Part shown: positions 47,241-50,994 of the stretch, one piece after another
Layout of the letters: each line of letters starts with the position of its first letter
How positions within the stretch are numbered: the first letter of the stretch is position 1
Origin: Byssothecium circinans
Lineage: Eukaryota > Ascomycota > Dothideomycetes > Pleosporales > Massarinaceae
Assembly (NCBI GenBank): GCA_010015675.1
Contig: ML976982.1
Location: 76,612 to 140,611, forward strand
Direction: 5' to 3'
DNA: 64,000 nt
Made by a program: the position numbers and the translations under genes
The notes under the pieces: generated by a model
Seen by the model: the letters and a program-made list of their open reading frames with translations, nothing else
The model's database searches: none
Told to the model about the DNA's origin: nothing

Positions 47241-47242
47241 TA
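47241..47242. other. TA target-site duplication, left
   Basis: TA dinucleotide directly outside the left inverted repeat, matching the right copy at 50993-50994. Keeping one TA joins the host codons GGT-TTT-AAT-TTT-GCG in frame. Confidence 0.88.
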
Positions 47243-47278
47243 GCGTATGCAGAATTCGAGGAATTCTTGGCGTATGCA
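47243..47278 (+). promoter_or_regulatory. Dyad with flanking direct repeats in left TIR
   Basis: AGAATTC-GAG-GAATTCT (47251-47267) is a perfect 7-bp dyad. It is flanked on both sides by the direct repeat GCGTATGCA (47243-47251 and 47270-47278). Such terminal arrays are where Tc1/mariner transposases bind; the function here is inferred. Confidence 0.6.
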
Positions 47279-47389
47279 CAAGATTCCGATTCCCCCCCAA
47301 ATCCCCGCCAAATCGTAGTTTCTAGTGAATCTCAGCCATTTCCACACCACATGGGCGAAGGCCGTCGTATCGTAAGTTGAGGCTGTAAA
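47243..47389 (+). repeat. Left terminal inverted repeat (147 bp)
   Basis: Begins GCGTATGCAGAATTCGAG and runs to GAGGCTGTAAA. It matches the reverse complement of 50846-50992 except position 47378 (T versus C). It contains a likely transposase-binding dyad, a promoter-length non-coding part and a 21-nt coding leader with splice donor. Confidence 0.93.
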
Positions 47390-48593
47390 TACAGCTGTAT
47401 GGGCCTATACTGACGACTTTTTGGTGTTGTAGGATCCCATGAGCCAGCTCAACCTGAGTAGGGCACCTACAGGGACGCGTCGCCTGCCGCCCAAAATCCC
47501 CTTCGATGATACTCTCCCATTACACATTGCCTCGAGGCACGCTCAGGCGTATAGTCGTCGCCGCTCCCAGGTGTATCACTTACTAATGCTTAGTGTCAAC
47601 TTTAAGGAGATCCAAACACGCGTTGGTGTTAACTACAAGTTCGTATGGCGCGTCCATCAGAACCTGATGATGTACGGGTCTCTTCACACACCGCGGTTTA
47701 GGAAGTTAGGGAGACAGCCCTCACTTACGCAGGGGGATCGCCAGGCGTTATTTGAAGAGCTGGCAGAGCATGGGTGGATGTTACAGCAGGAGATAGTGTA
47801 CTGGTTTAAGGCAGAGCGTGGCGTGAAGGTTAATCAATCCACTGTCTCCCGTATGCTGGCTACAGAAGGATGGACGAGGAAGAATCTCCGGCTCCTCTCC
47901 CTTGGCCAGAGCGAGGATTTGCGCGACGATTATCACCACAGGATGAGTAACTACTCAGCGGATGAGCTGGTGTTTATCGACGAGTCTATCTTCAACGAGA
48001 AAACTGGGTGGAGGCAGCGCGCCTATGGGCCTATAGGTGAGGAGAATCGGTGGGTTAGTAATGCTAGCCGTGGAAAGTCCTAGTCAGTGTTGCCAGCCTA
48101 CACGCTCCACTATGGGTATCTGGACTGTATGGGCATTAAAGAGGGATACTACAACCTTAAGGCGTTAATTAATTAGTTAGAGACTTAGCTGTTTCCTACA
48201 ATTAATCATTAACTAGGCGGTCGAGCTGTGTGTGTTGTACTAGATAACTGCTCAGTCTATTACAATGAGATTGTAGGCGACATCATCCAGAGAGCTGGCC
48301 ATACAATACAGTACCTGCCGCCCTACTTACTAGACTATAACCCGATTAAGCTCACCTTCTTAGTGTTAAAGGCCTGGATTCGACGCCACTACTATTACCG
48401 CCGGCATGAGTTTGACGACTTTGGGGCCTTCCTTAGGTGGGTAGTTGTTGCAAGCCATTATGACAGATTCTTAGTAGAGCACTTCAGGCACGCTGGAGGA
48501 GGAGGATTATACTTAGATAAGGCTACGCTAAGTAGAGCAAGAGAGCAGCTAAGGGCGTATAAAAATGGGGAGGTAGATTTACTTATAATGTAA
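47351..48593 (+). pseudogene. Tc1/mariner DD34E transposase, RIP-like stops
   Basis: Leader exon 47351-47371 (ATG plus six codons, inside the TIR) is followed by GTAAGT at 47372, branch site TACTGAC and acceptor TGTAG at 47432. Exon 2, 47433-48593, continues in phase with DPMSQLNLSRAP; the full frame would be 393 residues. The N-terminal HTH region is RRRSQVYHLLMLSVNFKEI and KVNQSTVSRMLATEGW. The first catalytic Asp is in LVFIDESIFNEKTGW, the second in CVVLDNCSVYY; the third site, 34 residues on, reads DYNPIKLTF, with Lys where Glu belongs. Four in-frame stops occur, at 48081, 48174, 48186 and 48210, clustered between the first and second catalytic Asp. TGG-to-TAG and GAG-to-AAG are G-to-A changes expected of RIP. 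Transposase activity from this copy is not expected. Confidence 0.9.
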
Positions 48594-48683
48594 CTAGAAA
48601 TTGCTACGTAGAAAACCTCCGCTTCCTACTTGCATATCTAGCAGAGTACCAGCTACTTTATGCTGCCGAAAAGCTGGCTTAAA

Positions 48684-50884
48684 CTACTTTAAATAGCGCC
48701 TAAAACTCCTTACTATTCCGTCAGGTAAACTACAGCCTTGCCCTATTGCTATCCTGTACAGTTCTAATGACGGATTCTCCATCATCTTAAGGTCGTCAAG
48801 AGTCCAGTACTTCGCAATTGCTACCTCCATTGCTTGCCGGTAGTCGCCCTGTCAAGCCTCTGTTTTTTGTCTCTGTATAACCCACTGGAAAAACTGCTCA
48901 ACAAGGTCGTACTCATCCTCAGCTAGGTCGATAGGGCTTGAGGGCTGCTGGGTTGGCGGGTGTAGAGTAAGAGCAGGTTGAATTGCAGGAGCGTACGGTG
49001 CAGCCGTCGGCGGCAGCTTATAGGTAGAGGTTCGATTTTATATAGGAAATAGCTGAGGATTTAACCCTTCTGTATAATAGGACACCGCCCTCTGCTGCCG
49101 GCCCTCAAACTCGTTCCTCTCCTTCTCTAGTTTGCTTATCTCTCTAGCCTGTTTCTCCTCCATCCAGAGCTCCATCTTTTCCCTCATAAGCTCCATCTTC
49201 TCCACCATCATATCAGCCTGTATTTGAAGCTGCATCTCCTGCATCTCCTGCCTCTGTTTCTCGATTTGCTCCCTCATCCGCTGCGCCGGAGTCTGCTTGT
49301 TTGATGCCAGGTTGCCTCTCTCTACATGCCCTTTGGCGTATATCCTGTGTTTACACTCATCTGTGGCTGCCCATTTAGTAGTCTCATCACGCTCCATTGC
49401 AGAAGCCCAGCTATCAATATCTGGCTGATCAAGCTTAAAGTGTAGGCTAGGTTTCTCAGAGGCGTTCCAGTAGCAGAAGTTACGATTATTTAGGCACCCT
49501 TCCTGCAGGCACCTCCACTGCTCGTGCAGCTGTTGTACGAAGTCGCCACGTTTGGCATACCCAGCAAGCTTAGTGACGGCGTTAACTTGCTTCAGCTGGT
49601 TTAATCGATCGTTCCGTGTGCCACTCAGTGTAGATAGGAGCGTCGTTAATGGGGAATTAGGCTTAGCAATCCTCTTCTTCTCTACCCTAAGTTTGCCGTA
49701 CTCAGTAAGGGCAGAGCACTTAACCCGGATCTTAAAGGTAAGCCTGATGGGCTAGGCTCAATGAGTAAAGTGCTGGGAATCTGCCATATTGAGTATCCAC
49801 TCTAGAGTAACGTCACTAAAATCCTTAAAGGTTTGCGAGTTGTTCTGCCCCCGGCCGGCTATACTCCTCACAATTACCTGCTGGTGCAGGAACGTAAACT
49901 CCTCCTCACCAACTTTGCCCTCAACAGCCTCACGCACCAGCTGCTCCACCCAGTCAAGGCCACCCTCAGCGAGCGTCGAACGCTTCATGTCGCCAGTCTT
50001 GCTATCGTTGAGTACGTTGGCCTTGTTAACCCATACTTTCAACACTAGGTTGACGATGTAGTCAACCTCAACTTCACGGTTAACGCGGTAGTCAATCTCC
50101 TCGTCCTCAAGAAACTCCTCTGCAGCGTACGTATCGGGCGTCTCCTTACTCCTCTGCTTCAACTCACGCTGTAGATTTTTCTTTGCCCACTCACGCTACA
50201 GGCCCTCCAGCGATAATGGCCGCCCGTCAAAGCCATGAGTACGAGGAGGTCCCACTGTACTTTGCTGGCGACGGCGAGCTTCATGAGTACGATCCTCGTA
50301 CGCGCCAGCATCAGCCTCATCAAGAGCCTCTTCCTCACTAGAAATAGGTCCCTCAGTCTCCTCAACGCCCTCCTCAACAAGGTGGGCCCGGCCCTCTTGC
50401 ATACGCTCTAAGTACGCCAGCTCCGCGCGCTTTTGCTCCAGCTGAGCCTCCAGCCCCACTAGCCTCCTCCTTGGCAGCACACTTTGAAACGGATCGGGCG
50501 AGATAGCTCGCTCAGCAGGGCGCTTTCGCGGAGGACCTGGCGCCCGAGGAGTCGCAGGAGGTGCTTTGCCGCCTCGAGCAGGAGGTCGCCCACCGCGTCG
50601 AGCAGCTCCCCGGCGAGCAGCAACTCCTCCACGAACAGGAGCAACAGGAGCAATAGGAGCAGGAGTTTGGAGCTCATCAAGGGCGGCAGCACTGTGGTTG
50701 TTGACGCCTTTTTGAGCTCTCTTAGAGCGACGCGTCGCAGTCGGTGTGGCTTTTGGGGGCATGGTATAGGCAAATCGGCTGAGTACTCGAAATCTCTGCA
50801 GTTGCAACATAAGAAAACGCGTCAGTATATGCCCTCACTAACAACTTTACAGCCTCGACTTACGATACGACGGCCTTCGCCCAT
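48684..50884 (-). pseudogene. Transposon partner gene, unknown family
   Basis: Leader exon 50884-50864, inside the right TIR, encodes the same seven residues as the transposase leader. The intron 50863-50796 (GTAAGT, branch TACTGAC, acceptor CTGCAG) joins it in phase to an exon beginning RFRVLSRFAYTMPPKA. The frame then runs to 48684, 710 residues in all, broken by five stops near 50198, 49760, 49754, 49040 and 48854. Layout: a basic Arg/Gly/Pro-rich start with an AT-hook-like RRGGRPPARGG, an acidic Glu-rich stretch, a helical middle (VEVDYIVNLVLKVWVNKAN), a Trp/Cys-containing segment (QWRCLQEGCLNNRNFCYW), then a Glu/Met/Lys coiled coil (EIEKQRQEMQEMQLQ-like heptads) and a C-terminal helical domain (YDLVEQFFQWVIQRQ). 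It is not a transposase. A DNA-binding or assembly role is inference. Confidence 0.8.
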
Positions 50885-50992
50885 GTGGTGTGGAAATGGC
50901 TGAGATTCACTAGAAACTACGATTTGGCGGGGATTTGGGGGGGAATCGGAATCTTGTGCATACGCCAAGAATTCCTCGAATTCTGCATACGC
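50846..50992 (-). repeat. Right terminal inverted repeat (147 bp)
   Basis: Reverse complement of 47243-47389 with one difference. It supplies the leader exon and splice donor of the partner gene on the minus strand. Confidence 0.93.
50957..50992 (-). promoter_or_regulatory. Dyad with flanking direct repeats in right TIR
   Basis: Mirror copy of the left terminal array: the AGAATTC-GAG-GAATTCT dyad between two GCGTATGCA repeats. Confidence 0.6.
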
Positions 50993-50994
50993 TA
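50993..50994. other. TA target-site duplication, right
   Basis: Copy of the TA at 47241-47242, directly outside the right inverted repeat. Confidence 0.88.

Follow-up and report, generated by a model that had tools for sequence, protein, structure and literature searches.

A Tc1-like element with two convergent genes

The DNA analyzed here, a 64,000-nucleotide stretch of the Byssothecium circinans genome (contig ML976982.1, positions 76,612 to 140,611; hereafter the window), contains a 3,750-bp Tc1-like (DD34E) element at positions 47243-50992, in which each terminal inverted repeat carries a short leader and a 5' splice site that probably serve the two convergent genes lying between the repeats. 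Both ends were flanked by TA target-site duplications, located directly outside the left end (47241..47242) and the right end (50993..50994). The left repeat (47243..47389, plus strand) and the right repeat (50846..50992, minus strand) were each 147 bp long and were identical at 146 of 147 positions, with the single mismatch at repeat position 136, within the intron described below. The left repeat held a leader with an ATG, the 5' splice site, and the first 18 nt of this intron. Copies and relatives of the element were searched for in the 48.4-Mb assembly of 109 contigs.

The second exon of the predicted transposase gene (47433..48593, plus strand) encoded a helix-turn-helix-like region and a DDE_3 catalytic domain of the DD34E type, and was interrupted by in-frame stops in the window copy. 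With the stops read through, the window transposase matched DDE_3 (PF13358) with an E value of 9.9e-24, and its matches to Arg_repressor, HTH_ABP1_N, HTH_32, and HTH_33 were all below the Pfam cut-offs. The third catalytic residue was K in the window copy and in copies C56, C23, and C74, and E in copy C4 and in all seven aligned relatives covering that position; the spacing of 34 residues between D and E was counted by eye on the alignment. By its predicted protein, the transposase is of the D, D34E DDE_3 kind found in Tc1/mariner elements of the DD34E type, and the TA duplications and terminal inverted repeats likewise place the element in the Tc1/mariner (IS630-Tc1-mariner) superfamily. The Mutator/MuDR superfamily is defined by a MULE-type transposase and 9-bp target duplications; membership in it was rejected on account of the DDE_3 transposase and the TA duplications, and the likeness to MuDR is one of layout only. 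The available text of PMC4188875 gives 1.3-2.4 kb and a single transposase gene as usual for Tc1/mariner elements, a usual but not a defining trait from which the present element departs with its 3,750 bp and two genes. The transposase had 23 protein relatives, including P0001 of Polyplosphaeria fusca. Three loci in the genome (L057, L058, and L059) encoded distant relatives of the transposase, 29-34% identical and matching without stops. No long inverted repeats were found within these loci, which are possibly older single genes or genes used by the host.

The second gene lay on the opposite strand. Its second exon (48594..50795, minus strand) comprised 733 codons and a stop after the intron, reading from 50795 to 48594, which corrects the 703 codons given in the initial annotation. 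It carried in-frame stops in the window copy, as the transposase gene did. A Pfam search with the window protein returned no family, and two protein relatives were found, P0024 (55% identity) and P0025 of Polyplosphaeria fusca (38%), to which the second gene is homologous at the level of the gene. The two coding regions met stop codon to stop codon with no spacer (TAA at 48591-48593 on the plus strand, TAG at 48594-48596 on the other strand) in all five copies readable there, so that the 3' ends of convergent transcripts would necessarily overlap. This arrangement also leaves little room for separate promoters. By analogy, and from its presence in two families of elements in this genome, the second gene would appear to be accessory.

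Leaders and predicted 5' introns in the window copy

Each repeat contained ATGs at positions 5, 32, and 109, the last of which was followed by six further codons and then, at position 130, by the donor GTAAGT on both sides. The 147-bp repeats, the leader encoding MGEGRRI (47351..47371 on the plus strand, 50864..50884 on the minus strand), and the adjoining GTAAGT were thus present at both ends as the initial annotation had described them. Its two phase-0 introns, each with a TACTGAC branch site, were likewise found where it had predicted them. The predicted intron of the transposase gene (47372..47432, plus strand) spanned 61 nt and read GTAAGT...TACTGAC...TAG, with the branch site at 47408..47414; that of the second gene (50796..50863, minus strand) spanned 68 nt and read GTAAGT...TACTGAC...CAG, with the branch site at 50821..50827. 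The left join was in phase 0 and open (MGEGRRI-DP-MSQLNL...), and so was the right join (MGEGRRI-RFRVLSRFAYT-MPPKAT...). The chance of both joins being open in phase 0 was about 7%, which is weak evidence taken alone. When read without splicing, the frame opened by the leader ATG soon met a stop.

The combination of signals was rare in the window. The strict pattern (GTAAGT, 20-70 nt, TACTGAC, 4-30 nt, YAG) had one match per strand, exactly at the two predicted introns. A looser pattern of donor and branch site had 11 matches on the plus strand and 16 on the minus strand (27 in total), and TACTRAC with YAG 20-110 nt downstream was found at 254 of 127,780 anchor positions, or about 0.2%.

Copies in the genome and damage by repeat-induced point mutation

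The left end, used as the query, matched 17 sites that were assigned to ten copies, so the genome holds at least ten copies of the element (family A). Four of them (the window copy, C56, C23, and C74) were free of gaps, and six were interrupted by runs of N. TA was found outside all ten first ends (one per copy) and outside all six second ends that were located by exact match, the remaining four second ends having escaped exact match. Fourteen ends, 8 left and 6 right, could be read through the intron; three further right ends broke off before the leader, and three copies showed one end only.

The leader ATG was kept in 13 of the 14 readable ends (7/8 left, 6/6 right) and GTAAGT also in 13 of 14, both losses falling in one copy, C74, that was heavily mutated by repeat-induced point mutation (RIP). 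TACTRAC was kept throughout (8/8 left, 6/6 right), and 12 of 14 ends had the first YAG in the same position, with both exceptions in C74. The mark of RIP was evident in C74 and C23, where C>T and G>A substitutions were densely packed and fell mainly at CpA. C4 had two stops in the transposase frame. The conservation of the signals within family A provides modest evidence, because the unmutated copies are near identical. In C23 (locus L020), no changes from the window copy were present in alignment columns 1-150 and from 3601 on; as a whole this copy differed from the window copy by about 7%, mostly RIP-type changes.

A related family in the same genome

Eight loci carried relatives of both genes in the same convergent arrangement and formed one family of elements of about 3.5 kb (family B). 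The transposases of the two families were 38-47% identical and the second genes 27-31%. An extended-donor motif search found 20 exact sites, 12 of them in family A and 8 assigned to family B, compared with 1 for the reversed control; the following readings of family B ends leave out two of the eight motif sites (C11 and C15). All seven readable left ends had an intron of 59 nt with TACTAAC, homologous to the left intron of family A, and the donor was GTAAGT in six of them and GTAGGT in C29. In none of the seven did the 110 nt preceding the donor include an ATG. Family B thus seems, from these signals, to have an intron in the 5' untranslated region of the transposase gene and no matching one for the second gene.

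Shuffle tests (1,000 shuffles each, with the window copy representing family A and C24 alone representing family B) were used to compare the ends. The left introns of the two families were alike (z 4.8, 0/1,000 shuffles as good), as were the right intron of A and the left intron of B (z 3.4, 1/1,000) and the whole leaders including the repeat (z 3.5, 3/1,000). Over the 60 nt immediately preceding the donor, which hold the ATG in family A, A and B showed no likeness (379/1,000 shuffles as good). Within family A, the two introns could be aligned to each other beyond the near-identical repeat (z 4.3, 0/1,000), and the starts of the two second exons could not (z -1.1, 892/1,000). Similarly, the two ends of C24 were alignable between the repeat and the ATG (z 7.0, 0/1,000) and not past the ATG (129/1,000); both family B ATGs were 211 bp in, counted from the end of the alignable repeat, as the outer limit of B is not certain. 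It follows from this pattern in both families that the inverted symmetry takes in the 5' parts of the two genes and does not extend into their coding sequence. We consider this, on the alignments, to be the strongest finding, and it goes beyond the initial annotation.

These comparisons bear on the possibility that the splice signals arose by chance and are unused, with both genes translated from the ATG after the intron on unspliced or internally started transcripts. The start codons of the relatives, which lie after the intron, would fit such a possibility. On the other hand, the strict combination of signals occurred only twice in 64 kb, both times at these introns, and the intron was homologous in a family whose transposase is only 38-47% identical and whose leader next to the intron was unlike over its last 60 nt. 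We regard chance as very improbable.

The family B repeat was 98-101 bp long at 92-96% identity in four of the six copies where it was found, and 75-77 bp at 85-86% in the other two. It is conceivable that the signals on the second side are a by-product of homogenization, the leader and donor having been copied between the ends by gene conversion or end duplication, so that the second donor serves no purpose in itself and the second gene merely tolerates the extra intron. The varying repeat length (147 bp in A, 75-101 bp in B) and the second gene of family B, which has no matching donor, are consistent with this explanation. It is nevertheless unlikely in our judgment, given that the right intron has its own branch site and acceptor outside the near-identical repeat and can be aligned to the left intron past the repeat, which means that a whole intron is present and not only a donor.

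Two further observations were made on family B. Several copies (ends L048, L049, L050, L053, and L054) shared about 25 bp outside the point where the others diverge, and may have been inserted into another repeat. In the less mutated copies (right ends L035, L038, L040, L034, L037, L039, and L041), the right end retained an ATG whose left-end equivalent falls within the predicted intron. As read by eye, this ATG begins a short upstream reading frame that closes ahead of the start of the second gene, and it could separate the translation of the two genes.

The start codons of the two proteins

In both genes a second ATG followed the predicted intron. That of the transposase gene (47439..47441, plus strand) opened MSQLNLSRAPTG, and P0001 starts MSTSRQAPRAPVG; that of the second gene (50760..50762, minus strand) opened MPPKATPTATR, and P0025 starts MPPKATRTSTR. 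Both relatives thus start at the position of the post-intron ATG, where these starts are database gene models from one species and not experiments. In its strict form, the reading of the initial annotation was that both proteins truly begin at the repeat-borne leader ATG, giving them the common N-terminus MGEGRRI and making their translation dependent on splicing. Several observations agree with it: both joins are in phase 0 and open and the unspliced leader soon runs into a stop, the leader ATG is retained in nearly all readable ends and is the first AUG that any transcript initiated at repeat positions 33-109 would contain, and in C23 the leader ATG was kept and the post-intron ATG of the transposase was changed, though this copy is full of stops. 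Against these stand the absence of an ATG from the 110 nt before the left donor in all family B ends read, the lack of conservation between A and B in the last 60 nt of the leader, the relatives that begin after the intron, and the chance of about 7% for the two open joins; moreover, the conservation of the ATG within family A says little when the unmutated copies are near identical. We find the strict form rather doubtful. Since family B is without the leader ATG and the relatives start after the intron, this ATG looks like an addition of family A rather than the ancestral start, one that may lengthen the two proteins by 9 and 18 residues. As a conserved property, neither a common start codon nor the MGEGRRI peptide was supported.

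Element ends as probable shared leader and splice-donor modules

The interpretation that we favor, and consider reasonably probable on the sequence comparisons, is that the ends of this RIP-damaged fungal element act as shared promoter, leader, and splice-donor modules for its two convergent genes. It builds on features read directly from the DNA, namely the anatomy, the copies, the splice signals, the homology of the intron to that of family B, and the symmetry ending at the coding sequence. Under this model, the terminal inverted repeat would be the transposase-binding end, the promoter, and the transcription start at once, and would supply a first exon and a 5' splice site to whichever gene lies inside. 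A short intron would join the repeat-borne leader to the inner gene. The conserved start codons lie just past the intron, and the near-identical repeat passes inward into a diverged, inverted version of the intron that ends at the coding sequences. In family A, use of the in-frame leader ATG would additionally add MGEGRRI to both N-termini. Promoters are most likely located in the repeats and introns, because the element offers no more than 196 and 230 bp ahead of its two conserved start codons. We infer from the anatomy that expression would be coupled to intact ends, and the repeats may act as promoters and be homogenized, as the initial annotation had proposed. Its proposal that the repeat is the leader and 5' splice site of two convergent genes was supported for the signals, which were kept across copies and at the left end also in family B, and was not borne out at the right end of family B, where the matching donor is missing.

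Several points weigh against this interpretation. In all seven readable right ends of family B, AAAACT replaced the donor and the sequence read beyond it contained no TACTRAC, so that a 5' intron in the second gene is not general and a donor on both sides is, in what was seen, specific to family A; an alternative donor may exist at the right end of family B, which qualifies the missing match. In copy C74, in which all exceptions among the family A signals fell, the ATG was missing on the left and the donor and acceptor were missing on the right; RIP, with C>T/G>A changes at about 9%, could explain these losses. Promoters could also lie within the opposing gene or in DNA next to the element, and the symmetry could derive in part from duplication or conversion instead of function. 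The architecture was seen in one genome, and splicing of both introns is predicted from sequence signals.

The most far-reaching version appears doubtful to us. It would have the repeat provide not only the transposase-binding end and the promoter but also the first exon, the 5' splice site, and the start codon of two unrelated proteins; the two would then carry the same N-terminal tag, and damage to an end would keep a copy from making either of them. If it were true, the element would have a built-in check that expressed copies can be mobilized, and selection or conversion would keep both ends identical. Should the shared-module interpretation be true, a first exon and splice donor in the ends would make expression and mobility depend on one sequence, and this would go some way toward explaining why the repeats are long and near-identical. 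It would moreover show the layout of MuDR in an unrelated superfamily, Tc1/mariner, and would provide in fungi a testable system for the interplay of repeat-borne leaders, splicing, and RIP. The analysis also linked a gene family with no Pfam model to a DD34E transposase.

Comparison with known systems

The comparisons below refer to the parts of each paper that were available. The closest layout was that of MuDR (Mutator) in maize, which has two convergent genes, a transposase gene and a gene of unknown function, between long inverted repeats containing promoters and transcription starts for both, and in which convergent transcription gives antisense RNA (PMC3440606). The present element likewise has a transposase gene and a second gene converging between long inverted repeats, where promoters are suggested by the layout, and its abutting 3' ends would make convergent transcripts overlap. 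Unlike MuDR, it has TA duplications and a DDE_3 Tc1-like transposase and belongs to a different superfamily. Alternative splicing of MuDR is mentioned in the available part of the paper, with no mention there of a splice donor or start codon in the repeat (PMC3440606).

Bari3 of Drosophila mojavensis is, like the present element, Tc1-like with long repeats, and its left repeat and spacer have promoter activity that overlaps transposase binding (PMC4120734). Bari3 differs in having a single gene and cryptic splicing inside the transposase gene, and the text available mentions no second gene at the right repeat (PMC4120734). The Tc1-Mariner families of Sclerotinia sclerotiorum have TA duplications and introns in their transposase genes (PMC4188875), and so resemble this element as fungal elements with TA duplications and an intron, here a predicted one, in the transposase gene. 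According to the same excerpt, they differ in their size of 1.8-2.3 kb, repeats of 36-70 bp, and HTH_psq/HTH_Tnp_Tc5 transposases, and their introns of 124-276 nt are inside the coding region (PMC4188875). The TBE/Tec elements of ciliates have a Tc1/mariner-type DD34E transposase and more than one open reading frame (PMC7325037), as does the element described here. They differ in having three open reading frames, with a site-specific recombinase in Tec, and repeat-borne exons are not mentioned in the portion available (PMC7325037).

Among the matches listed, judged by titles and the starts of abstracts, none reported a Tc1/mariner element with an exon or splice donor in its repeats, which is not proof of novelty. 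As far as the available texts go, MuDR is a known case of promoters for two convergent genes in long repeats, and Bari3 of promoter activity in the left repeat plus spacer; what differs here is the superfamily and a family A repeat that runs past the 5' splice site.

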